Notes under the pieces: generated by a model
Database searches by the model: none
Told to the model about the DNA's origin: nothing
The model's input: the letters and a program-made list of their open reading frames with translations, nothing else
Source: Parcubacteria group bacterium
GTDB lineage: Bacteria; Patescibacteriota; Patescibacteriia; Patescibacteriales; GWC2-42-12
Assembly (NCBI GenBank): GCA_016188785.1
Contig: JACPHD010000007.1
Location: 1-40,672, forward strand
Length of the DNA stretch: 40,672 nucleotides
Direction of reading: 5' to 3'
Part shown: piece after piece, positions 4,556-29,549 of the stretch
Position numbering within the stretch: position 1 is the stretch's first letter
How the letters are laid out: each line of letters begins with the position of its first letter
Translations under genes and position numbers: made by a program

Positions 4556-5953
4556 TTATAGTTTTGCTTTCATCAGCGGCGAACCAACCGCGATAATGTC
4601 ATAGCCGGCCCCCATAAGTTCGTCGTATTTTTGCGCCAGCATGCGGCGTCCGTCCATAATCAGCGCGCCTTTAGGTAAATTTTCTAAAATTAAACCATCC
4701 AGTCCTCTGAATTGCGGCCAGTCAGCGGTTATGATTAAAATATCAGTTTCTTTAATAACTTCTAATTCTGAGCCGACTAAATTTATTTTTTCCGCGCCTT
4801 TATGACCGGAAAAATATTTTAAATAATTATTTCCGGCCGCTGGATCATAAACCTTGATTTGCTTCACAGCTTTAGTTAATAAAAATTCAGTTGTACCGAG
4901 CGAAGCGGCGTTCCTGATATCATTGGTGTCCTGTTTAAAAGCCAAGCCCAACAGGCCCACGGTTTTTCCGGCCCAACTAAAATTCAGTTCGGCTTCGGCT
5001 CTGGCTAAAAAATTATTTAACTGCCTTTGATTAGCGGCCAAAACATCGTCAATTAAATCAGTTTCAGCGCCTTTAACTTTAAGCTGATGCGCGAGCGAGC
5101 GAGCGTCTTTGATAAAGCAGCTACCGCCGGCAAATAAGCTGTCATAAAAACCCCAGTCGCCGATCCGGCCATCGGTGATTAAAACTTTCCTGATGTTTTC
5201 AAACTGCAGGCCGGAAAATTTTTCGCAAATTCGGCCCACCACATCAAAACAATTAGCCAAACGGCTGAATAAAATGTAGTTGGCCAGCAGTTTGCCGGCT
5301 TCGGCTTCGGCCGGGCTGACTTCCAGATAGGAAACGTTGGACGATTCCACGAAGCGGCCGTAAATATTTCTAAAAATAGCGAAGTCGGTTTGGCTGTCCG
5401 CCCCAACCACGACCCGCGCCGGCCGGATTGAGCCTTCAATCGCCTTGCCTTCAACCAAAAATTCCGGATTTGAACCCACACCAAAATTTTTTACTCCGGA
5501 GGCCAGCATGATTTCTTTGGTGCGGTTAATCATGTCAATCGGCACCGTGCTTTTATTAATTATCAAAACATACCGGCTTGGCTTGCCCTGATTTCTTTTA
5601 GTCAACAAGCCGGCCAAAGTTCTGGCGGCATTTTCATAAATTTCCAAATTAGTTTCACCCGTACCGTCGCGTTCCGGCGTGGGCAGGCACATAAAGACCG
5701 CTTCAGCTTCGTCAATAAATTTTTCCGCCTCGGCTAAAGCAAAAGTAAATTTAATCCTGGCCTGATTTCTTATAAGCAAATCGCCTAAGCCTTTTTCAAA
5801 TAAATATGATTCTATTTTGTCCTTATCGCCGGACGATAAACTATTGACCAGCTCCTGATTAATATCATAAACCAAAACCTCATGCCCGCTGTCCGCGCTT
5901 ACCGCGGCCGAACAAGCGCCAACAAAACCGCCACCAAAATATAAAATTTTCAT
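4556..5953 (-). CDS. UDP-glucose 6-dehydrogenase family protein
   Basis: FGGGFVGACSAAVSADSGHEVLVYDIN; VINKSTVPIDM-like; GSNPEFLVEGKAIEGSIRPARVVVG; GGSCFIKDARSLAHQ; LGLAFKQDTNDIRNAASL. Confidence 0.9.
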   Translation of the reverse strand: MKILYFGGGFVGACSAAVSADSGHEVLVYDINQELVNSLSSGDKDKIESYLFEKGLGDLLIRNQARIKFTFALAEAEKFIDEAEAVFMCLPTPERDGTGETNLEIYENAARTLAGLLTKRNQGKPSRYVLIINKSTVPIDMINRTKEIMLASGVKNFGVGSNPEFLVEGKAIEGSIRPARVVVGADSQTDFAIFRNIYGRFVESSNVSYLEVSPAEAEAGKLLANYILFSRLANCFDVVGRICEKFSGLQFENIRKVLITDGRIGDWGFYDSLFAGGSCFIKDARSLAHQLKVKGAETDLIDDVLAANQRQLNNFLARAEAELNFSWAGKTVGLLGLAFKQDTNDIRNAASLGTTEFLLTKAVKQIKVYDPAAGNNYLKYFSGHKGAEKINLVGSELEVIKETDILIITADWPQFRGLDGLILENLPKGALIMDGRRMLAQKYDELMGAGYDIIAVGSPLMKAKL

Positions 5954-13599: not shown

Positions 13600-13893
13600 T
13601 TATATTTCATTATATAAATCTCGCCACGTAGAATTTTCTTTTTCTACTAATTCTATCTTCCATTTTCTTTGCCAATTTTTTAATTGTTTTTCCCTGTTAA
13701 TTGCATCTCTAACGTCATTATAGACTTCGCAATAAACTAATTTATCAACTTTATATTTTTTGGTAAAACCATCATAAATTCCTTGTTTATGTTTATCTAT
13801 TCTATCGGCTAAATTTGAAGTTACTCCTATATACAATGTGCCGTTTCTTTTACTGGCCAAAAGATAGACATAATAATATCTTTCCTCCTTCAT
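13600..13893 (-). CDS. Stand-alone GIY-YIG nuclease-domain protein
   Basis: YYYVYLLASKRNGTLYIGVTSNLADRIDKHKQGIYDGFTKKYKVDKLVYCEVYNDVRDAINREKQLKNWQRKWKIELVE; start reassigned to internal Met at 13893, because upstream codons derive from the flanking repeat. Confidence 0.9.
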   Translation of the reverse strand: MKEERYYYVYLLASKRNGTLYIGVTSNLADRIDKHKQGIYDGFTKKYKVDKLVYCEVYNDVRDAINREKQLKNWQRKWKIELVEKENSTWRDLYNEI

Positions 13894-18015: not shown

Positions 18016-18860
18016 TAATTTGTGCTCGTTGCCGTTTCGCTCTCACCTTTAACCCGTCCAGAGCTTGCCGAAGGAACCTGGCCGTCTTTATCTGCCTGGC
18101 TAATTACTTTATTAACTTCCTCCAATTTATCAATGCTTTGATTATAATTTTTTTGATCAAATAATTCTTCCGCTTCTTCCAGGGCTTTATCCGGAGTAGT
18201 CGTGGCCGCCGGCTTAACCGGTTCAGAAATTTCCATTCTTTGATTATTCTTGCCTAAATTGGCTCCGAAAACTTCCGGCTCTTCTTTATTTTCTTCATTT
18301 TCTTTATTCTTATTTTCAGCCGCTTTGATCGTAGTTAGCCTGTTTTTAACCTGTTTGATTTCTTTTTTAAAGTCTTGCGATAATTGTTTTACTTTTTCAC
18401 CTTGCTTATCAGCCGGCTCTTTAGCCTCTTCTAAAACTTGAGTTATTTCTTTGGCTCGGTTGGCGGCGAATTCCAAACCCAATTTAACTTTATCTTTTTC
18501 ATTAAAAGTTATAACTAGCTGGGTTTTTTCGCTGATAATTTTGGCGATATATAACGAGTCGCCGGGTTTGGAATTTTTTGCAGCATAAACTCCGCCGATG
18601 CCAATTACTAGAATCAAGACGCTGATTAAAGCCGTTACCCAAACCGATTTAGACATGTCAATAAAAATTTTACCCGGCATAATAGTCTGCCAAATTATTC
18701 TTAAATTTGATTCTGATTTATTGGCCGTGGCGCCGGCGGAAATCTGGCTATGCAAAATCTCCCGATAATTTTTCTTCCAATCATCATCGGGTTTAATGGT
18801 TTTTAAATTATTTAATTTTTTGATAAGTTCTTTTTCGTTCACCCCGTTAGAAGTTTGCAT
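18015..18860 (-). CDS. DUF5667-like single-pass membrane protein (putative anti-sigma or sigma-linked factor)
   Basis: TM VWVTALISVLILVIGIGGVYAA followed by KNSKPGDSLYIAKIISEKTQLVITFNEKDKVKLGLEFAANRAKEI; adjacent to a sigma factor. Confidence 0.7.
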   Translation of the reverse strand: MQTSNGVNEKELIKKLNNLKTIKPDDDWKKNYREILHSQISAGATANKSESNLRIIWQTIMPGKIFIDMSKSVWVTALISVLILVIGIGGVYAAKNSKPGDSLYIAKIISEKTQLVITFNEKDKVKLGLEFAANRAKEITQVLEEAKEPADKQGEKVKQLSQDFKKEIKQVKNRLTTIKAAENKNKENEENKEEPEVFGANLGKNNQRMEISEPVKPAATTTPDKALEEAEELFDQKNYNQSIDKLEEVNKVISQADKDGQVPSASSGRVKGESETATSTN

Positions 18861-18924
18861 AATATTTATAATTGCGATTATCCCGTTAGGTACATTTTTC
18901 CCAGAAACTTCTAACGGGGTTCAT
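18841..18924 (-). repeat. ACCCCGTTAGAAGTTT/AAACTTCTAACGGGGT inverted repeat spanning a mini-ORF and the start codon of the DUF5667-like gene
   Basis: Arms 18841-18856 and 18905-18920, 16/16 bp; mini-ORF MNPVRSFWEKCT* at 18924-18886 (minus); main ORF begins MQTSNGV. Confidence 0.9.
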
Positions 18925-18933
18925 ATTTGAAAA

Positions 18934-19497
18934 TTAAATTTCTTTATTCACGAGCTCTTTTAGCGCTCCCACCGCCCGAAAAATTAACACCCTGACATTG
19001 CCTTTGGTCTTATCTAAAATCTCGGCGATCTCTTTGATTGAAAGTTCGTTGACGAAACGTAAAATTATTACCTCGCGATACTCATCTTTTAATTCCGGCA
19101 ATTTAGTTTCTAAAACCAAAAGATCAAATTTTAATTCCATGGCTTTGGCTATGTTTAGTTTGTCATCAATAATTTCAATCCTGTTATCAACGTCCAGGCT
19201 CATAACTTCTCTGTCTTTATTTTTTCTATAATGATCAATGATTAAATTTCTGGCGATTTTATAGAGCAGAGCTTTTAAAGTTTTTGGCTCTTTTAAACTG
19301 TTTTCCAAAATATAGCTCCAAGTTTTTAAAAAAACGGCTGAACATAAATCTTCGGCTTCTTCCCGACTGCCTACTTTAAAATAAATAAATCTATAAAGCT
19401 GATCTATATATAAATCATAAGCCTTAATAAAGGCTTGTTTGTCGTTTTTTTTAATTTTGTATAATAACAATTTTTCTTCTATTTTGCCGATGTTCAT
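18934..19497 (-). CDS. Sigma-70 family (ECF-like) RNA polymerase sigma factor
   Basis: DLYIDQLYRFIYFKVGSREEAEDLCSAVFLKTW (region 2), LPELKDEYREVIILRFVNELSIKEIAEILDKTKGNVRVLIFRAVGALKELV (region 4). Confidence 0.93.
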   Translation of the reverse strand: MNIGKIEEKLLLYKIKKNDKQAFIKAYDLYIDQLYRFIYFKVGSREEAEDLCSAVFLKTWSYILENSLKEPKTLKALLYKIARNLIIDHYRKNKDREVMSLDVDNRIEIIDDKLNIAKAMELKFDLLVLETKLPELKDEYREVIILRFVNELSIKEIAEILDKTKGNVRVLIFRAVGALKELVNKEI

Positions 19498-19750
19498 TTT
19501 AATTATACTTAATTATACGAAAAAAATTAGTTATTGTTACAGTAAATAATAAACAATAGCTATTTATAGCTATAATGTTGGATTCAGCCCAGCGGATATA
19601 TCAAGCATAATAACATATAGATGGGTAAAAAGCAAAATGACAAATCCAAATATAAAAAATTGATTTATTTGTCATTTGTCATTGGAAATTTGTCATTATT
19701 TAAGATACTCTTGCCTTTTTAAAAGTAATATGTAAAAATATAAATATATT

Positions 19751-19873
19751 ACTTTAGTCTAATATGACGTGGACTTTGGCTAGATTATAAAATAATAAGA
19801 CTTTAGTCTACATTGTTGTAGACTAAAGTCTTATTATTCATAAACTTAAGTCTACATTATTGTGGACTTAACT
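19751..19873 (+). promoter_or_regulatory. Three tandem imperfect palindromes (operator-like), the last ending 2 nt before the HTH gene start
   Basis: actttagtctaatatgacgtggactttggc (19751), actttagtctacattgttgtagactaaagt (19800), acttaagtctacattattgtggacttaact (19844). Confidence 0.75.
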
Positions 19874-19875
19874 AT

Positions 19876-20160
19876 ATGGCAGAAGAAAAAACTCAAATCC
19901 AACCAAATAATAAAAAATTTGATAATAATGAGATTAAAACTCCTATTTGGCTTTCTGTTTCCGAAGCCGCCAAGATCGGCGGTGTTCAGACAAAAACTAT
20001 CCGCCGCGCCATCCAATATAATAAAGTTAAATATAAAATAATCAGCAACCGCTATTCAATTGACCTAGCTTCCTTAATAGCTTTACTGCAAACCAAAACT
20101 AAATTAAAAAATAAACTAAATCAATTCGGACTGGGCCAATATGTGGATAAGTGGAAATAA
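19876..20160 (+). CDS. Small HTH (MerR/excisionase-type) DNA-binding protein
   Basis: PIWLSVSEAAKIGGVQTKTIRRAIQYNKVKYKIISNRYSIDLASLIALL. Confidence 0.8.
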   Translation: MAEEKTQIQPNNKKFDNNEIKTPIWLSVSEAAKIGGVQTKTIRRAIQYNKVKYKIISNRYSIDLASLIALLQTKTKLKNKLNQFGLGQYVDKWK

Positions 20161-20251
20161 ATGAAAATGACAAATGACAAATTTTCAATGACAAAACTAT
20201 GAAAGTTGTCCGAAACAAACTATCCTAAAAGCGCCGTCCAGACTGTCCGAG

Positions 20252-20377
20252 AACTGTCATTCCGACCCCGCACTTGATGCGGGGGAGGAATCGCTTAAAG
20301 GTAGAAACTGCTAATTTAAGGGATTTCTCCCCCGCGGATGCGTGGTCAAAATGACAAAAAATGAATTCTCGGACAGT
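20252..20377. repeat. Nested palindrome (CTGTCCGAGAA ... TTCTCGGACAG enclosing GTCATTCCGACCCCGCACTTGATGCGGGGGAGGAATC ... GGGATTTCTCCCCCGCGGATGCGTGGTCAAAATGAC)
   Basis: Outer and inner inverted arms read directly. Confidence 0.8.
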
Positions 20378-20435
20378 TGCCAGAAAAAATATTCGAACAA
20401 TCTATTATTTTAAAAACTATTTAATTATATTTTTC

Positions 20436-20464
20436 TTGTGGTGCGGATATTTTTATGTTATAAT
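20436..20464 (+). promoter_or_regulatory. Sigma70-type promoter
   Basis: TTGTGG - 17 nt - TATAAT. Confidence 0.65.
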
Positions 20465-20470
20465 TATAAA

Positions 20471-20600
20471 ATAAAACAATTTAATCCCCATGCATGTTTT
20501 ATTTTATATTATTATTTTTCCAGCCTAAGCTGAAAAAACTTTTTATTTTACATATTATAAATTATAAAATCGGCTAATTTTTTAATTGGCCGATTTTTTG
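20471..20600 (+). ncRNA. Candidate ~130-nt sRNA or leader/attenuator upstream of the giant surface protein
   Basis: Starts ~7 nt after the -10 box at 20459-20464; ends in hairpin AAAATCGGCTAA-TTTTT-TTGGCCGATTTTTT with a T-run. Confidence 0.45.
20567..20600 (+). terminator. Rho-independent terminator/attenuator
   Basis: aaaatcggctaattttttaattggccgatttttt. Confidence 0.75.
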
Positions 20601-20622
20601 TTATTAAATTTTCATGAAAACT

Positions 20623-20702
20623 ATGAACCCCGTTAGAAATTTATTCTAAAACGAGGTTTATAAAAAACGAACTTATGATAAACAAAATTTCTAACGGGGT
20701 GA
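20623..20702 (+). repeat. ACCCCGTTAGAAATTT/AAATTTCTAACGGGGT inverted repeat spanning a mini-ORF and the start codon of the giant gene
   Basis: Arms 20627-20642 and 20685-20700, 16/16 bp; mini-ORF MNPVRNLF* at 20623-20649; main ORF begins MINKISNGV at 20675. Confidence 0.9.
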
Positions 20703-23700
20703 AAACATTTAAAAATCTGGCAAAAAAATTCGTGGTTGGTTTAACCATAACCGCGACTGTGCTTTGGAGCATGAGTTCTTCCTTATTAATTCCAACCTTG
20801 CCGGCTAAGGCCGCTTTAATCAGTCCTAACGTCATCGGCTTAATCAACGGTAATTTCCCTGACGCTCCCATTAAGGCCAGTTCGGCAGCTACGGCGATTG
20901 TTAAATTAAATATCTCTGCTTCGGCGGCCAATCAGACCCTGCAAGCGGTTACCGTAGCTTTTACCACCAGTCCGGGAACTTTTGCTACTACCACTTTAGC
21001 TAATATCACAGCTAACACCAGTTCTGGCGTAGCTTTATATAATGATTCTGCCGGCAATGTAGGCAGTTTAGTCGCCACCTCAACAACCGGCTGGACCGGC
21101 CTGACCAGTAATATCACCTTAACGCCCCAGCCGGCAATTTCCATCGGCACGGCCACCAGCACTTTTTATGTGGTGATCAGAACTTCAGGCACAGCCGCGA
21201 ATAATTACCAAATTATGGCCACGATTCCGGCTAATAGCGTAATTACTTCTAATGGCAGTGGCCCGGCCGCCGACTACACGGCCAATTCATTCAGAGTGGA
21301 CACGGCTGTGCCAAGTATTACCAGTGTTACCGGTAATAGCGGCAGTCCTAATTTAACCGTAACCTTTTCCGAGCCGGTGCAGAAATCTGGCGGCGGCGCT
21401 TTAACCGCCAATCAATTTACTTTTGTTGACAATGGCACTACCACCGGCCACAGCACCAGTACGGCCTCTCATATGGCTGGACACCCGGTTGCCACCGTAA
21501 CTTTAACCGCTAATACAGACTCGGGCGATTTTGACGGCACACCCAGCACTTTGGCGGCCGCCACTAGCACCATTACTGATATGGCCGGCAACGTGGTCGC
21601 GCCTACGGCCGTGCCTCTGACCAGCCCGATTACCATTACCACTTATGTGGTGCCTACGGCCACGACCACGGCGGTTTATTCGGCCAGCAACCCTTTAGTA
21701 ACTTTCGCGGCTACCGGCGGCAATGGCATTTATACTTGGAGCGATGTTGGTACCAGCCTGACGCCGACTAGTTTATCTTTAAGCGCCGGCGGCGTGCTTA
21801 CCGGCACCGCCACCAGCTCTATGGGCAACTACCAGGTGCTAATAAAAGTAGCGGACAATGCGGTTCCCGCAGCCAGCACCACTAAAAATTTTACTATCAA
21901 TGTGGGCACTGCCGGCGGCGCCGTGCCTGGCATATCCAATATCACTCCAGGCGGCGGCGCGACCAGCACAACTCCTACCTTAACCATTACCGGCAGTAAT
22001 ACTAATTTTTCCTCTGCCAGCGTAGTTACGTTTACTATGCCACAGGGTGTCAATGGAACCGTTGGTATAACTGGCAACGGCGCAGTATCAGCTATCAGCG
22101 CCACTTCTCTGTCCGTGCCAATTACCATAGCGGCCGGAGCCACGGTCGGCGCTAGAGACGTTAAAGTTACTACTGGCTCACAAATTGTTTTTATGCCGTC
22201 CGGCTTTAGCGTATTTGCCGGCGGCGGCGCGACCGGTTTGGGTTTAAATTTACCAACCGATGCGGCCACTAATGTTTCAGTAACTCAAGGCTCGCCCAAT
22301 TTTAATTTTAATCCTTCTACCAACGCGGGCGTTAATTCTTATCGCCTGACCATAAAACCTAATTCTGATTTTTCCGGCACAGCTTTATGGGATTATGTTT
22401 TTCCCATTCCGGCCCTAATGTCTACTAGCCATTGCGGCGCTTCAACTTGTAATGTGAGTTTCGGCGCCGGGCAATTTATGCCCATCACTCAAGCCACTCA
22501 ATTAGCCGCCAATACCACTTATTATTGGAATGTCCGCACTTATTCGCAAATGCCTGGCAACGTTAGCGATTCAAACGTGCCCTTAGAAATGACCGCGGTG
22601 CGCAGTTTCACTTCCACTGCTGAAATTGCCGACAATGCTCCGCCTTCAATTGACCACCAGCCGATTTTCTCGGCCCAGGCCAGCACGGCTTTAAATATTT
22701 TCGCCCGCGTCATGGATAACATCGCTAATGCCAGCACCACGCCGGCTTTAACCACTAAAGTCTTGTACTGCGCTACGGCCGGCTGTACGCCGACCGACGC
22801 CACCGGCTCATCCACGGCGATTTCTATTGGCAACGGTTATTTTAAATATACTATTCCGGCTGGAGCTAGCGGTGTGGGCGCGGCCGGCGCGCTTGTCCGT
22901 TATTGGCTCCAGGCTAATGACGGCACCAATACTACCTGGTATAAAAATACTGGCGATGCGCCGTTCCAACTTACTACTGCGGCCGCCGGTTCAGCCACTA
23001 TTACCGGCACAGTGATGGATAACGCGGGCACACCCGCGGCCATTCTCGGCGCCACCGTCTCTATAAAAGGCACCGGCTTTAACACTACCACGGCCGCAGA
23101 CGGCACTTATACTTTAAGTAATCTTTCTCCGGGAACTTATGATATCGTAGCGGTTAGAACCGGTTATACCGACAGCATCATAAACGGTATACCGGCCGGA
23201 GCCACTGGCATTAACTTTACCCTGTATTCGGGCGGCGGCGGCGGCTTTGGCGGCGATACCACCAGGCCGCACCTTAAATTTAGCGGCCCGCCGGATAATG
23301 GTATGGCTCCGGGCAATGATTCTAACTTTAAAATTTTTATGGCTTTTGATAAAGCCATGAATCAAACCGTCATAACTAACAGCGGTAATATAACGGTCAA
23401 CTCGCTTAATCCCCTGACCGGCGCTTTAACTAATATCACGGCTAGCGGCACTCTAACTTATTATCAAAACGCTCCGCCAGCCGGCGCGCCCGCGGAAAAC
23501 AATTTAGCCATCTGGTCCTTAACTAGCCCCAATACTTTTGGCGATAATAAAACCATTGTGGTGAAAATAACGCCAAGCGTGGCGGATACGGCCAATAATG
23601 CCATTCAGGGCAACCAGCCGGACGGCTCTTATGCTTTTTCTTTTACTACTAATAAGGTAGCCGACTTTACCAGCTTTAACACCAGCACTGGCGCTTTCTC

Positions 23701-26700
23701 CGGCGGCGGCACTTTCGGCTCCGGCGCTTTTACCCCGCCTTATGTTACCGGCTCAACCCCGGCGCCAGGCATGTACGATATACCGGTTAACCAAAAAATT
23801 GTGTTTAATTTTTCCGAAGCCATGGCCGATGACGCTGGTACTTATGTTTTAAAAAATTATCTAAAACCATATACTTTGTCCGGCGCTAATCCGCCTTATA
23901 CCGAGACTGCCGTTGCGGCCGCTTCTTATTCAGTTTCCCTGGATACTTCTAAAAAAGTCGCCACGGTTACGATTACTGACAATGCAACAAAAATGACAGC
24001 CAGCACGCGCTACCGCGTCAAAGTTTTGGGCGGGGCCAAAGCTTCTTCCGGCATGACTCTTTCAGCTCCGGGCGGAGAAGCTAACCAGATGTACCTGACT
24101 GAATTTAAAACTTCTTCCAGCGCTGATGGCGATACGGCCGCACCAGCCATCACCGGCCTTTATCCGACTGGCGGCGCCACGGCCGTATCAGTCAACACCA
24201 ACGCAGTTAACGTGGGCTTTAATAAAGACATGAACGCCTCTACTCTAACTACCAGTAATTTCTATCTGTCCATTGGCTCAACCGCTGTTAACGGCACGGT
24301 TGATTACCGGCCAGCCGAGCGCCAAGCTTACTTTATACCGAAAAACTCGCTTAATGCCACTACTACTTATACTATAAATTTGACTGCTAGTGTTTTAGCT
24401 TTAAACGGCCAGGCTTTAACCGCCTCTACTTCTGTCTTCACTACCGGCGGAGCTGACACCGGACTGCCCACGGTTAGTTTCATTAACGCGGATGATTATT
24501 CTTTAGCCATTACTTTTTCCGAGCCCATGAACTCGGCCAAAGCGGTTGATACTTTAAATTATGCTTCTTCCACCTTAAATCCAGCCCGTTACACCATTAA
24601 ACAAGGCGCAACCGGCTTCAACGCGGAAACCGGCGGCGCCACCGTAACTTTAGGCGCTGATGTCTCTTTATCTTATGATGCCATCACCAATACCGTTATT
24701 ATTAAAGGCGTTAGCTTAACCGCCGGCAACGAGGTTTATGTTTCAGTCTACGCGGTTAAGGACGCGGCCGGCAATGTTATGACTACTGGCAATACGGCTA
24801 AGGCTCCGGTGCAAAGCAGTTCCACCACTAAAGGCGCTTTGGGCCCTATGGCCATGTCTTCTGACGCTTTTTCTATGGGCGGCGGCTTTATGCCTACCAG
24901 CTTTTCCGGCTCCACTTTTGGTTTTGCGCCGCCGGTTGATGTCAAACCATTCAGTATGATGGCCGGTAAAACCACGATCTACGGCGTGCGTCTGCCTATT
25001 TCTAAGCAAATTCCGGCCGGCGGCACGATTGTTTTAACCTTCCCTACTGGTTTTGATATAACTGGGGCTAAACAGGATATTAACAGCCCCATGCGCTCGG
25101 ACTTAAATGGTCCGGGCACAGGCGCACCCACCTTTAAATGCCTTACCAATGTGAGCGGCGGTAAATCTTGCGCTACTACAGCCAACGCCGATGATACAGG
25201 CGCGGCGCAAGGCGGCTTGGCTGATGACGGCGTAGTGGTAAATACGGCAGCGCGCGCCGTCACTGTTTATCTCTCTTCAGCCACTAATTCCGCCGGTCAT
25301 GATTTCTTAACTTTAGACATCGCCGGTATAATAAATTCCGTGGTACCTAAAGACTTTAATACCGCCGGCTATACGGTTGACATTAAAACCAAAAATGGCT
25401 CCACTTTATTAGAATCTTTAACTTCACAGCCCTTCTTTATTCAGACCGGCGGCGCTTATTCCATTAGTGGCACGATTACGGCTACCGGCGCCAACGGCGT
25501 TAGTTCTACTACTAAAATATATCTGATGTCGCCCATGACCGGACCGACCGATGTTACGGCCACTTTTGACGGCGGCGGCGGAACGACCGCTGCTTATTCG
25601 TTCACTGGCTTATCCGCCGGTGAATATTTCCTGTTCACTGATCCGTCAATCACTTTAGGCACGGTTGACTTTGTGGGCAAACAAATGCCGGAAAGAATCT
25701 CTATTACTAATGCTAATGTAACTTATAATATCAGCTTAACCAACGCTGATTCAGGCACATCAGTTACCATTTCGGTTAAAGGTCCAGCCAGCGAGCCGAT
25801 TGATGTTTTTGCCGGCTCGCCTACTGGCTTTAAAGTTAAACAAGTAACCTTAAATAGTAATGCTAACGATTATGACAGTATTACGCTTAAATTAGCCGAT
25901 GGCAATTGGATGGTGGGCGTAGGTCCGCAGATGCCTAAAGGTCCTATGTCCGGTCCGCCGCCCACGCCAACTTATCTGCCGCCTCAACCGGTAAATATTA
26001 CCGTACAGTCCGGCGGCAGTCCGGCGGTGGTGGAGAATAGCGATACGGCTAATGACGGCACTCTTAAGTTTACTTTAACTACGGCTGATAAATATATTAA
26101 AGGTACGGTTAAAGACGGTTCCGGCAAAGTTATGGCCAATGCTGAAGTCTACGCTTATTCGCCTCAAGGCGGTCTGGGCACGCATGGCCAAACCGCTACT
26201 GACGGCACTTTCTCTTTGGGCGTTACCGACGGTTCTTATATTGTAGGCTCATTCGTACCTGGCATGCCTTCGTCCAAAGAAGTGCCAGTAGTAGTTACTA
26301 GCGATGCCACTACTTATCTTTTAATTGACGGCTCTACTACGGCCATAGAGGCCGCGACCGCGCTAACCTCATTCATCTTAAAAATCGCCAAGCCTGATTA
26401 TACAATTTCCGGTAAAGTCACAGATGGTACCAATGTCGTGCAAGGCGCTTCGGTTTATGCTTACCGCACGGATGGACCAGGCCATTCTAATGCTAATACG
26501 GATTCTTCCGGCAACTATACCTTATATGTATCAAATGGCACCTGGAAAGTTGGCGTCTTCCTGCCCCAATACGGTAATTTAACTGAACAGACAGTGACTA
26601 TTAGCGGAGCTAATGCCAGCAACCAAAATTTCGCGCCTTCTAGCACTGGCACCTTTAATTCTATTGCCGGTACGGTAACCGTGAACAACGTCAACCAGCA

Positions 26701-29287
26701 AGGCGCTTTTGTCCGCATTAACGGCAATAATACTTCTAATGAAGCTATTACCGGTACAAATGGCCAATACAGTTTTAAAGTGCCGCAAGGCAATGGTTAT
26801 GTTATAAAACTTAACATTCCAGGCATGGGTGAAGCCTCAACCACAGCCGCCTTTAATGTTACCGGCGATATCACCGGCAAAGATTTCGCCATTGGCGCGA
26901 CCAGCACTATTACTGTTTTAACCTCTTCCTCGGTCACTAAAGCTTTTGTTGAATTGATGGACATCAATGGCGTGGGCGGCCGCGCGGAAATTACTAATGC
27001 TACTTCTACCAGCTTAAGTCTGCCTAGCGGCAGCTATAAAGTTGCGGTTAACATACCGGGCATAAGCTTACCGTTAACCGCCATCGCCGGCACTACAGTC
27101 AACACGGCCTATGCCACTTCTACCGGCGTAGGCGTAATTACGGTTAATGGCGCGGAAAGCTTAACCGTGACTTTACCGACTTTACGCACTGTTTCCGGCG
27201 CTACCAGCGTGGGTGATGCCTGGGTAGAAATTATTAATAACTCCAGCGGCATTCACTTTGGTACTAAATCAGCTTCTACTACGCCTTATGCCTGGAGCCT
27301 GCAAGTGGCTGATTCGGCCACGGATTATATCATCAATGCCATGAAACCAGGCTATTATCGCGACCCATCCAACCTAACGGTTAATGGCGCTAATCCGGCC
27401 AGCCAGACTCTTACCTTAACCGCTTCCACTTTAAACATCTCCGGCCAGGTGAAAATCGGCTCTGCCGGCGCGGCCAACGCTTTTGTGCGCGCGGAAAAAC
27501 AAGGCGCTGGTTTTTCCGGCACCCAGGCCGACGCTAACGGTAATTTCACTTTGCCGATTACAGCCGGAACCTGGAAAATTTATGGCGTGGCCGAGGGTTA
27601 TGCTGAAACTGCTTACTCGGGCAATCCGATTATAATTACCACTAGCTCATCGGCTGGCAATAATATTACTTTAAGCTCCACGGTTTCCTTAAGCCCGCCA
27701 AAATCAAAAACCATTACCCCGTCAAGCGGCGGCACTTTGGACGACCCGGTGGCTGGAGTAAAAATAACCATGTTAGCTAATGCTTTAAGTCAGGATACTT
27801 CGGCCGGTAATATCCAAACCAAAGAAACCAATAATGTGCGCTCCACTTCAAATTCCAAGCCGATTGACAAAAAAGGCATAGAAATAACCGCTATTGATTC
27901 TAATAAAAATCCGATTAAAAAATTATCTAACTCCGTCACTGTGGAAATGAGCTATAATAACACTGAATTGGCCACCACGCCTTCGGCCTCTGATTCATCA
28001 ATCAACACTAAAACAGAAGCGGACAAACTGCAAATGGCTTATTGGGACGAAACTACGGCCAACTGGGTAACTCTGCCTTCAACCATTACTTATTACAAAT
28101 CAGATGGCACGATTTTAGACAGCTCTGACTCGGCGCATACACCGGCCGCTAATTTATCTAATGTGGCCACGACTACAATTTCGGCCCCCACCACTCACTT
28201 TTCGCTTTATGCTCCGGTTTCTACAACCGATGGCGCGCCAGGCACGCCAACTGGTTTAACTGCGTCCACTCAAAGCACAACGCAGATCAATTTAAGCTGG
28301 ACCGCGGTTTCCGGAGCTGTAAGCTATGATCTCTACCGTAATACGGTTGACAGCGGCGACTTTCCCCGAGTAGGCAGTGAACCTAGCACTACCAGCACTT
28401 CTTATTCTGATACTGGTTTAACCGCTGGCACGACTTATTATTATAAAGTAAGCGCCATAAACGGTTCGGGCGAATCAATCGCCTCGGGCGCTGTTTCAGC
28501 CACCACTCAATCTTCTGGAGGAGCGGTAATCGCTCCGGCCAGCGGTAATCTCCAGACTGCTTCTCCGTCAACTCTGGCCCCTACACCCACACCAACTACC
28601 ACCCCGCCGCCGACTGCGCCGGCTACCACCGCCACCCCAACACCAGCCACCCCCGCGATCACTGCGACTCCAGCTATCACAGCCGGCGGCGGCACTTCAC
28701 AGATAAAAAATATCGTGGCTGAAGCCGCCACAGTTGCCAGCGGAAAAACTGAACAGATTTTATCAGCTATTGGTTCAAGTAAGGATAACAAAGCTGAAAC
28801 TTCAGCCGCGATAAAATATACGACCAATTTAATAAACAAACAAAAAATTACTACCAGCGCCAAAACCGCCCTAACTAATTTTATTGCCTATGGCACGCCC
28901 ACCACTAAAGTTTTAGGCGCTGGTGAACGAGCCGGCGTAGTCAACTCTTACAAATCAACTTTTGGCAAAGTGCCGTCAACCGAAACTGAATGGTCTGATG
29001 TAATAAAAATCGCTAATGGCAGATGGCCGTCTGCCCGCGACGTTAAATCAGAAAATGCTTCTACTGATGCTTTTAAGAAAATCTATAAGCGCTCGCCTGA
29101 CCGAAAAAATGCTAATGATGACGCGGCCGTAACCGTAATCGCCTACGGCTTAAGGCCAGCGGCCAGAAACACTAACAGCGAGAAAGCCGCCATTAAGAGC
29201 TTTAAAGCCATCTACGGTTATAACCCGAAAAGCGCCACCGCCTGGGACATAGTAAGAGCCGTAGCATATTCAGGGGCGAAGAGGTAA
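20675..29287 (+). CDS. Giant secreted surface protein (2870 aa): bacterial Ig-like (SbsA/Big_5-type), multiple CarboxypepD_reg-like domains, FN3, Pro/Thr linker, conserved C-terminal module
   Basis: Signal region TFKNLAKKFVVGLTITATVLWSMSSSLLIPTLPAKAA; repeats such as ISGKVTDGTNVVQGASVYAYRTDG..GNYTLYVSNGTWKVGV; FN3 GTPTGLTASTQSTTQINLSWTAVSGAVSYDLYRNT..; PTPTTTPPPTAPATTATPTPATPAI; C-term YGYNPKSATAWDIVRAVAYSGAKR. Confidence 0.85.
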   Translation: MINKISNGVKTFKNLAKKFVVGLTITATVLWSMSSSLLIPTLPAKAALISPNVIGLINGNFPDAPIKASSAATAIVKLNISASAANQTLQAVTVAFTTSPGTFATTTLANITANTSSGVALYNDSAGNVGSLVATSTTGWTGLTSNITLTPQPAISIGTATSTFYVVIRTSGTAANNYQIMATIPANSVITSNGSGPAADYTANSFRVDTAVPSITSVTGNSGSPNLTVTFSEPVQKSGGGALTANQFTFVDNGTTTGHSTSTASHMAGHPVATVTLTANTDSGDFDGTPSTLAAATSTITDMAGNVVAPTAVPLTSPITITTYVVPTATTTAVYSASNPLVTFAATGGNGIYTWSDVGTSLTPTSLSLSAGGVLTGTATSSMGNYQVLIKVADNAVPAASTTKNFTINVGTAGGAVPGISNITPGGGATSTTPTLTITGSNTNFSSASVVTFTMPQGVNGTVGITGNGAVSAISATSLSVPITIAAGATVGARDVKVTTGSQIVFMPSGFSVFAGGGATGLGLNLPTDAATNVSVTQGSPNFNFNPSTNAGVNSYRLTIKPNSDFSGTALWDYVFPIPALMSTSHCGASTCNVSFGAGQFMPITQATQLAANTTYYWNVRTYSQMPGNVSDSNVPLEMTAVRSFTSTAEIADNAPPSIDHQPIFSAQASTALNIFARVMDNIANASTTPALTTKVLYCATAGCTPTDATGSSTAISIGNGYFKYTIPAGASGVGAAGALVRYWLQANDGTNTTWYKNTGDAPFQLTTAAAGSATITGTVMDNAGTPAAILGATVSIKGTGFNTTTAADGTYTLSNLSPGTYDIVAVRTGYTDSIINGIPAGATGINFTLYSGGGGGFGGDTTRPHLKFSGPPDNGMAPGNDSNFKIFMAFDKAMNQTVITNSGNITVNSLNPLTGALTNITASGTLTYYQNAPPAGAPAENNLAIWSLTSPNTFGDNKTIVVKITPSVADTANNAIQGNQPDGSYAFSFTTNKVADFTSFNTSTGAFSGGGTFGSGAFTPPYVTGSTPAPGMYDIPVNQKIVFNFSEAMADDAGTYVLKNYLKPYTLSGANPPYTETAVAAASYSVSLDTSKKVATVTITDNATKMTASTRYRVKVLGGAKASSGMTLSAPGGEANQMYLTEFKTSSSADGDTAAPAITGLYPTGGATAVSVNTNAVNVGFNKDMNASTLTTSNFYLSIGSTAVNGTVDYRPAERQAYFIPKNSLNATTTYTINLTASVLALNGQALTASTSVFTTGGADTGLPTVSFINADDYSLAITFSEPMNSAKAVDTLNYASSTLNPARYTIKQGATGFNAETGGATVTLGADVSLSYDAITNTVIIKGVSLTAGNEVYVSVYAVKDAAGNVMTTGNTAKAPVQSSSTTKGALGPMAMSSDAFSMGGGFMPTSFSGSTFGFAPPVDVKPFSMMAGKTTIYGVRLPISKQIPAGGTIVLTFPTGFDITGAKQDINSPMRSDLNGPGTGAPTFKCLTNVSGGKSCATTANADDTGAAQGGLADDGVVVNTAARAVTVYLSSATNSAGHDFLTLDIAGIINSVVPKDFNTAGYTVDIKTKNGSTLLESLTSQPFFIQTGGAYSISGTITATGANGVSSTTKIYLMSPMTGPTDVTATFDGGGGTTAAYSFTGLSAGEYFLFTDPSITLGTVDFVGKQMPERISITNANVTYNISLTNADSGTSVTISVKGPASEPIDVFAGSPTGFKVKQVTLNSNANDYDSITLKLADGNWMVGVGPQMPKGPMSGPPPTPTYLPPQPVNITVQSGGSPAVVENSDTANDGTLKFTLTTADKYIKGTVKDGSGKVMANAEVYAYSPQGGLGTHGQTATDGTFSLGVTDGSYIVGSFVPGMPSSKEVPVVVTSDATTYLLIDGSTTAIEAATALTSFILKIAKPDYTISGKVTDGTNVVQGASVYAYRTDGPGHSNANTDSSGNYTLYVSNGTWKVGVFLPQYGNLTEQTVTISGANASNQNFAPSSTGTFNSIAGTVTVNNVNQQGAFVRINGNNTSNEAITGTNGQYSFKVPQGNGYVIKLNIPGMGEASTTAAFNVTGDITGKDFAIGATSTITVLTSSSVTKAFVELMDINGVGGRAEITNATSTSLSLPSGSYKVAVNIPGISLPLTAIAGTTVNTAYATSTGVGVITVNGAESLTVTLPTLRTVSGATSVGDAWVEIINNSSGIHFGTKSASTTPYAWSLQVADSATDYIINAMKPGYYRDPSNLTVNGANPASQTLTLTASTLNISGQVKIGSAGAANAFVRAEKQGAGFSGTQADANGNFTLPITAGTWKIYGVAEGYAETAYSGNPIIITTSSSAGNNITLSSTVSLSPPKSKTITPSSGGTLDDPVAGVKITMLANALSQDTSAGNIQTKETNNVRSTSNSKPIDKKGIEITAIDSNKNPIKKLSNSVTVEMSYNNTELATTPSASDSSINTKTEADKLQMAYWDETTANWVTLPSTITYYKSDGTILDSSDSAHTPAANLSNVATTTISAPTTHFSLYAPVSTTDGAPGTPTGLTASTQSTTQINLSWTAVSGAVSYDLYRNTVDSGDFPRVGSEPSTTSTSYSDTGLTAGTTYYYKVSAINGSGESIASGAVSATTQSSGGAVIAPASGNLQTASPSTLAPTPTPTTTPPPTAPATTATPTPATPAITATPAITAGGGTSQIKNIVAEAATVASGKTEQILSAIGSSKDNKAETSAAIKYTTNLINKQKITTSAKTALTNFIAYGTPTTKVLGAGERAGVVNSYKSTFGKVPSTETEWSDVIKIANGRWPSARDVKSENASTDAFKKIYKRSPDRKNANDDAAVTVIAYGLRPAARNTNSEKAAIKSFKAIYGYNPKSATAWDIVRAVAYSGAKR

Positions 29288-29386
29288 ACCCCGTTAGAAA
29301 AATGTCGCTTGTTGGTGGCTTTAAACCACCAACTGCGACAGAATTATTTACCTCCGACTTCGTCAAAGGCTTTTTCTAACGGGGTA
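29287..29386. repeat. Third ACCCCGTTAGAAAAA/TTTTTCTAACGGGGT inverted repeat, immediately after the giant gene's stop, with an inner hairpin
   Basis: Arms 29288-29302 and 29371-29385, 15/15 bp; inner TGTCGCTTGTTGGTGG ... CCACCAACTGCGACA. Confidence 0.9.
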
Positions 29387-29549
29387 AAAACCAAAATTAT
29401 TTATCAAACAGAATTTTAAAGGTCGAGCCCTAACCGGCTAAAATTCATAATCTTGATAAATTTATAAATAATAAAAAACAATAAAAATTAATATTCTGTT
29501 AGGCCTAAATATTAATTTTTATTAACCAAATTAAGAAATTAAAAAGACT

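Follow-up and report, generated by a model that had tools for sequence, protein, structure and literature searches.

A short mobile palindromic element that splits start codons and supplies a replacement start, with a possible link to a GIY-YIG nuclease

Results

The stretch of DNA analysed here (the window) covers positions 1 to 40,672 of contig JACPHD010000007.1 from a Parcubacteria group bacterium (assembly GCA_016188785.1), and contains two unrelated genes, a DUF5667 gene and a giant surface-protein gene, whose start codons are each split by a palindromic repeat. A first-pass annotation had placed hairpins at 18841-18924 and 20623-20702, with a mini-open reading frame (mini-ORF) in each 5′ arm and the main N-termini, MQTSNGV in the DUF5667 gene and MINKISNGV in the giant gene, encoded by the 3′ arms; both structures and all four peptides were recovered exactly on re-reading. 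The 16/16 complementarity given there for the arms holds if the flanking A/T is counted in, and the element proper starts at CCCC, the outermost A/T and the TGAA of ATGAA being target-site duplication and not element. Both hairpins are real copies, but a third copy in the window, which belongs to a stop-codon class, had been overlooked (Table 1). With at most one mismatch, the 12-mer TTCTAACGGGGT was matched six times in the window, against 0.19 expected. These hairpins are very probably copies of a short mobile, start-codon-replacing palindromic element that resembles a miniature inverted-repeat transposable element (MITE), and the analysis below establishes its mobility, its target site and its replacement starts.

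Table 1 Element copies, associated open reading frames (ORFs) and GIY-YIG-bearing long copies. Positions are those of the window, or of the locus where a locus (L) is named; a slash within a sequence marks the element boundary.
Feature	Position	Strand	Remark
Element copy 1, 78 bp	18842..18919	-	Inside start codon of DUF5667 gene; inverted ends CCCCGTTAGAAGTTT/AAACTTCTAACGGGG
Copy 1 target-site duplication TTCA (TGAA on gene strand)	18838..18841	+	Gene-side copy
Copy 1 target-site duplication TTCA (TGAA on gene strand)	18920..18923	+	Upstream copy; holds TG of original ATG
Copy 1 mini-ORF MNPVRSFWEKCT (then stop)	18886..18924	-	Opens at original ATG
Copy 1 replacement ATG	18858..18860	-	In loop
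Copy 1 third half-arm CTAACGGG	18882..18889	-	In loop; can pair with 5′ arm in place of 3′ arm
DUF5667 gene ORF, 281 aa	18015-18860	-	Present N-terminus MQTSNG/VNEKEL
Element copy 2, 72 bp	20628..20699	+	Inside start codon of giant surface-protein gene
Copy 2 target-site duplication TGAA, left	20624..20627	+	
Copy 2 target-site duplication TGAA, right	20700..20703	+	
Copy 2 mini-ORF MNPVRNLF (then stop)	20623..20649	+	Begins at original ATG
Copy 2 third half-arm TCTAAAACGAGG	20645..20656	+	Weaker
Giant ORF, 2870 aa, CarboxypepD_reg domain	20675..29287	+	Starts at replacement ATG at 20675
Element copy 3, 96 bp, stop-codon class	29289..29384	+	Directly behind TAA of giant ORF
Copy 3 target-site duplication TAAA, left	29285..29288	+	Includes stop codon TAA
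Copy 3 target-site duplication TAAA, right	29385..29388	+	
Long copy L250	L250:1003-1291		GIY-YIG gene inside the element ends
Long copy L338	L338:5962-6263		Duplication TTTA/TTTA; GIY-YIG gene frameshifted
Long copy L358	L358:1002-1379		Duplication TGAA/TGAA; in tandem with a mini-element; one end base changed (GGGA)

Exact copies of the 12-mer number 62 in the 1.0-Mb genome, 31 on each strand, and its reversed control is absent. Within the loci around these arms, which form the data analysed for this genome, about 46 hairpins of roughly 30-110 bp combine constant ends with varied interiors. The ends are 13-bp inverted repeats (CCCCGTTAGAARY...RYTTCTAACGGGG) that contain the trinucleotide TAG and have a sharp boundary, and directly outside CCCC..GGGG a direct repeat of exactly 4 bp flanks 25 of 56 arm pairs, against 5.5 on average and at most 16 in shuffles, and no longer repeat is seen. 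Perfect 4-bp repeats also flank 63 of the 126 scorable elements from other genomes among the matches listed (shuffle mean 8.7, maximum 19) and 24 of 54 elements in G018, a genome of another family that provided a third data set (shuffle mean 6.0, maximum 13). The duplicated target takes the form YNNR, mostly TAAA and TGAA. Matching between the two ends is complete for 11 bp, remains at ~90% at positions 12 and 13 despite varying letters, and falls to chance from position 14. Covariation of the arms had been proposed from two copies, which are thin evidence, yet positions 12-13 match in 95 of 116 elements of other genomes against 35.5 in GC-stratified shuffles (maximum 50). The mismatches at pair 12 comprise six G-T and five A-C, so the matching of the ends need not imply RNA pairing.

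Target classes were assigned by joining the flanks to rebuild the empty site, with expectations drawn from all TRRA sites of the same loci. The copies proved far from randomly distributed: of the 27 perfect-duplication copies here, 13 had hit a start codon and 5 a stop codon, where 0.41 and 0.24 were expected (two contigs, C2 and C21, begin inside a copy and have that element in common, so that the 27 represent 26 distinct copies), and start codons account for 16 of 24 such copies in G018, where the null is 1.3%. This excess at starts persists after in-ORF sites are dropped as lethal, with binomial tests on non-ORF sites only giving 7e-19 and 9e-20. The preferred start-codon target is A/TGAA or A/TGGA, and the genes concerned are unrelated, encoding among others ProRS (proS), Sua5, GalU, HrcA, RpiB and HtrA- and CtpA-type proteases; several of them are usually essential. 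The earlier proposal of a mobile cassette that is common to unrelated genes, enriched at start codons and holds the gene start within its hairpin is thus borne out.

Comparison with the congeners G001-G003, which carry 0-2 arms each against the 62 here, revealed the state before insertion. In their orthologs of ProRS, DUF5667, CtpA, HrcA, GT2, GalU and other proteins the element is missing, and an intact ATG start occupies the codon interrupted in this genome (A/TGAA). The first-pass annotation had named, as a refuting outcome, orthologs that lack the repeat and start at a downstream Met. Orthologs without the repeat do exist, yet their start is the original ATG, located at the insertion point, which makes the repeat an insertion that has taken the place of the start. 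ProRS accordingly reads MKYSKLFG in the congener and MVNQISNG/VKYSKLFG here, and HrcA reads MDKRKELI and MKISNG/VDKRKELI, respectively. Copies inside genes contribute 11, 17, 18 or 34 residues missing from the congener orthologs, one insert in a TsaD/TsaB-type protein reading GGSF-TPLEKPFLTGF-TALRIG, and the reading frame stays open in 29 of 34 in-gene copies on contigs from elsewhere (p = 6e-10).

An in-frame ATG lies in the loop of 22 of the 23 start copies here (shuffle 3.5, maximum 10) and of 16 of the 18 in G018 (shuffle 3.2, maximum 9), that is 38 of 41 in both genomes combined against ~7 expected, so that proS, sua5, galU and hrcA now begin inside the element. Insertion leaves the original ATG upstream, where it opens a mini-ORF (MNPVR.. 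up to a stop), and the gene would be restarted from the loop ATG, adding a short tag to the N-terminus. At its 3′ end the element runs into the gene as ..TCT AAC GGG G/TG AAA.., encoding S-N-G-V-K, and the tag contributed by the element has 5-13 residues in most start copies; for ProRS, the N-terminal peptide predicted from the loop ATG is MVNQISNGVKYSK. All 23 mini-ORFs stop within the element here; in L113, L121, L131 and L163, from certain other genomes, the frame of the original ATG continues through the element instead. Since only 9 of 136 native genes in this genome have a Shine-Dalgarno sequence, the AT-rich loop may be enough for initiation. A strong leaderless-promoter model for the loop was abandoned: -10-like boxes lie upstream of the loop ATG in 12 of 22 copies against 7.1 expected, and native genes show just a weak excess of such boxes at 8 nt. 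A third half-arm, TAACGGGG-like, is located between the ATG and the 5′ arm in 31 of 35 start copies (2.8 expected), and folding of the 5′ domain gave mean z values of -2.6 and -3.3. Pairing of this half-arm with the 5′ arm would free the new ATG and the 3′ arm, forming a putative switch.

A scan of GTDB contigs returned at least 112 stretches with related copies in metagenome-assembled genomes (MAGs), labelled, among the matches listed, as Patescibacteria, Planctomycetes, Deltaproteobacteria, Nitrospirae, Omnitrophica, Elusimicrobia, KSB1, Stahlbacteria, Ratteibacteria and Nitrospinota, and the exact full element was present in 13 of 287 genomes in an even sample of the phylum. A three-way-junction fold, with a 13-bp base and two hairpins, was found in 26 of 116 elements compared with 10 in shuffles (maximum 15); 11 aligned members contain 15 pairs that change on both sides, with a covariation score of 0.353 against 0.144 when shuffled and at most 0.134 when slid. 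Members of this subfamily, seen in L098, L130, L131, L148, L191, L199 and others, combine strongly covarying inner hairpins with a constant 13-bp base. No Rfam family matched the element, the one hit across 119 kb of sequence (the window plus eleven loci) being a tRNA, the plasmid and phage collections gave no match to it, and our literature searches found no prior description of it in the library consulted.

Several loci displayed further variation. The variant ends CCCCGTTAAAT..ATTTAACGGGG at L032:2998-3047 and L050:2587-2638 define a related subfamily in this genome, and elements nested within elements occur at L035:3009-3168, L051:3154-3265 and L059:3040-3144, those of L035 and L051 remaining in frame with the host gene. 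At L114:5845-5909 and L114:6383-6447, elements occupy the leaders of adjacent type IV prepilin genes, just before FTLVEL and FTLIEL.

Few matched ends lie more than 200 bp apart; such long, apparently full-length copies enclose a small GIY-YIG nuclease gene in three genomes (Table 1), with Pfam PF01541 scores of 3e-16 for L250 and 7e-14 for L358; the domain is encoded in longer copies only. The nuclease frame of L358 begins at the 5′ end of the copy's own arm (..HPVRNLAKSNWYVYIAESLKDK..KYYYERRK, then stop), the frame of the host ATG stays open throughout the nuclease (MNPVRNSVVNLNIIMSEKDHKISNGIHPVRNLAKSNWYVYI..), and a restart ATG for the host ORF overlaps the last codons of the nuclease (..TATTATGAGCGAAGGAAATAAC.., MSEGNNKISNGMKNLF). 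In about 12 of 16 cases, a start cassette of G018 is similar to the 3′ ends of the GIY-YIG copies, and L339 resembles the 5′ end too. The viral contigs contained no matched ends ~235-296 bp apart, and a protein scan of them returned only distant GIY-YIG genes.

Two GIY-YIG genes with other surroundings were also seen. One is free-standing in the window (13603-13893, minus strand; PF01541 E 3.6e-18), without CCCCGTTAG ends, and is flanked by another dispersed inverted repeat, CCGCAATCCAG. The other, in L324 (G018:C4, minus-strand positions 4559-4786), is flanked by 18-bp inverted ends, ACCCCGCACCTTTTAAGC, and possibly represents a sister element family with other ends.

Discussion

The layout of the long copies offers a candidate origin for the start cassettes, in which the mini-elements would be internal-deletion derivatives of a ~300-bp element encoding the GIY-YIG nuclease. 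In the one intact start copy among them, the nuclease ORF would be read from the host ATG via the 5′ end of the element (MNPVRN..NWYVYI..), and the host's new ATG would overlap the nuclease end, leaving the host gene to be translated by termination-reinitiation; deletion of the nuclease would then leave the MNPVR mini-ORF and the SNGV restart. We infer in part from this arrangement that the mini-ORF may be a vestigial 5′ end of the nuclease gene, a reading better founded than a regulatory one. A role of the GIY-YIG nuclease in the element has, in our estimate, slightly less than an even chance, and it is the most consequential lead of this work. The wider proposal is more tentative: a new mobile class in which a GIY-YIG nuclease, without a transposase, would put a short-inverted-repeat cassette into start codons and be read from the host ATG, an overlapping restart codon would repay the host, and deletion derivatives would spread across many bacterial phyla.

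Several observations weigh against this account and against other parts of the explanation favoured here. Sequence comparison of the start cassettes of this genome with the GIY-YIG copies shows little or no significant similarity, so that the derivation of these cassettes is read from layout; there are just three GIY-YIG copies, one of them frameshifted, one in tandem and one without a matching duplication; and we know of no GIY-YIG nuclease that on its own mobilises elements bounded by inverted repeats and flanked by target duplications. Half-arms are somewhat enriched in non-start copies here too (7 of 15 against 2.9), and the start cassettes share ancestry, which makes the copies non-independent as evidence for a conserved ATG and half-arm, although the insertions themselves are independent. 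The loop ATG could go unused in copies that retain the junction GTG, and MAG misbinning may have given some of the non-Patescibacteria contigs wrong labels.

The strongest competitor, which we hold to be possible but short of probable, is a conventional MITE derived by deletion from a DDE insertion sequence, with a transposase that is lost or supplied in trans from elsewhere, the GIY-YIG genes being passengers. Short inverted ends with a target duplication of constant length are the classical signature of DDE transposition, which the ends and the constant 4-bp duplication fit, and the copies of this genome carry no gene. However, no DDE_Tnp_1, IS1380 or IS982 gene linked to the element was found: Pfam DDE_Tnp_1 is absent from G000, G018, G036 and G046, and DDE_Tnp_1_4 (IS1380) and DDE_Tnp_1_3 (IS982) are absent from the eight element-bearing genomes tested. 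Matched ends 350-4500 bp apart enclosed no transposase ORF in the loci examined, L195 and L114 being among those inspected, the 29-bp copies are very small for a DDE mechanism, and the match of the ends at positions 12-13 is maintained despite sequence change.

Another possibility is that the gene restarts at the junction codon and not in the loop. The last base of the element is G, so the new junction codon changes from ATG to GTG (element G plus TG of the duplication), which is a legal start codon and is what most start copies read; the loop ATG would then be incidental. We regard this as unlikely, given that in-frame loop ATGs lie far above the shuffled expectation and that some copies have GTA, GAG or GCG as their junction codon, those mutated to GTA or GAG still keeping the loop ATG.

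Less likely again is a selected regulatory cassette, in which the mini-ORF and alternative hairpins would act as a translation switch recruited to chosen genes. The mini-ORF stop inside the element, the half-arm that can form a competing hairpin, the low folding z values of the 5′ domain and the replacement ATG would all suit such a switch, but the genes hit (ProRS, Sua5, GalU, HrcA, proteases, DUFs) have no evident common function, congeners with the same genes have no copies, and the same ends occur inside genes and behind stop codons.

The alternative raised by the first-pass annotation, a repetitive extragenic palindrome (REP/BIME) or REPIN moved by a RAYT, that is a Y1 tyrosine transposase, is hardly credible: the palindromic ends and variable spacer of the element recall REPINs (PMC3116915) and most element-rich genomes have a Y1-like gene, but the element is not extragenic, has flanking 4-bp duplications that vary in sequence and are single-copy at empty sites, and carries at the palindrome foot no GTAG/CGTC tag but a variable YNNR duplication followed by CCCC, and a search for Y1 genes and their flanks in this genome and 19 related ones found Y1 genes equally common in element-free genomes and absent from the element-bearing G010, no arms by the single Y1 gene of this genome, and arms within ~500 bp at two of the fetched Y1 loci, one being the GIY-YIG copy L250. 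A resemblance to integron attC sites was dropped, the GTT/AAC boxes being in reversed orientation.

The long copies resemble GIY-YIG homing endonuclease elements in placing a small free-standing GIY-YIG nuclease (PF01541) inside a mobile unit. Known homing elements insert at one conserved site by gene conversion, whereas the element described here is bounded by inverted repeats, duplicates a variable 4 bp, occupies many sites and has one copy whose ORF is read from the host start. Bacterial MITEs are small and non-autonomous, with terminal inverted repeats and target-site duplications, and are known to form in-frame fusions (PMC10969869). Our element shares with them its 13-bp terminal inverted repeats and constant 4-bp target duplication, but differs in that no parent insertion sequence was found here, GIY-YIG-bearing copies being present instead, and in its start-codon targeting with an in-element substitute ATG, its internal third half-arm and its three-way-junction subfamily. 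The palindromic elements of Rickettsia (RPEs) and Wolbachia are short repeats that lie in frame within unrelated, even essential genes (PMC10969869, PMC3767692), and like them the element is palindromic and sits in frame inside protein genes without destroying them. Unlike RPEs, which are described as within-ORF insertions, it prefers the start codon, brings a replacement start and makes a fixed 4-bp duplication, and it also differs in a host range over many phyla, in its GIY-YIG-bearing longer copies and, apparently, in terminal sequence. With REPINs, which have inverted palindromic ends, a variable spacer and a predicted hairpin fold (PMC3116915), it shares these three features, but the duplications, the absence of a GTAG/CGTC tag and of RAYT association, and the location outside extragenic DNA set it apart from REPINs and REP/BIME elements.

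By bringing a replacement start, a mobile element can land safely in the start codons of essential genes, turning one of the most damaging positions of a gene into a tolerable one. The insertions also explain the recurrent artefact-like N-termini (MNPVR.. and ..SNGV) of predicted proteins in candidate phyla, and bear on the annotation of gene starts. If the GIY-YIG link is true, it names a candidate mobilising enzyme for palindromic repeats of otherwise unexplained movement.

Next to copy 1, an ECF-type sigma-70 gene (window 18934-19497, minus strand) lies 14 bp upstream of the element and the DUF5667 gene. The two genes probably form one operon, so that copy 1 would sit inside the transcript.

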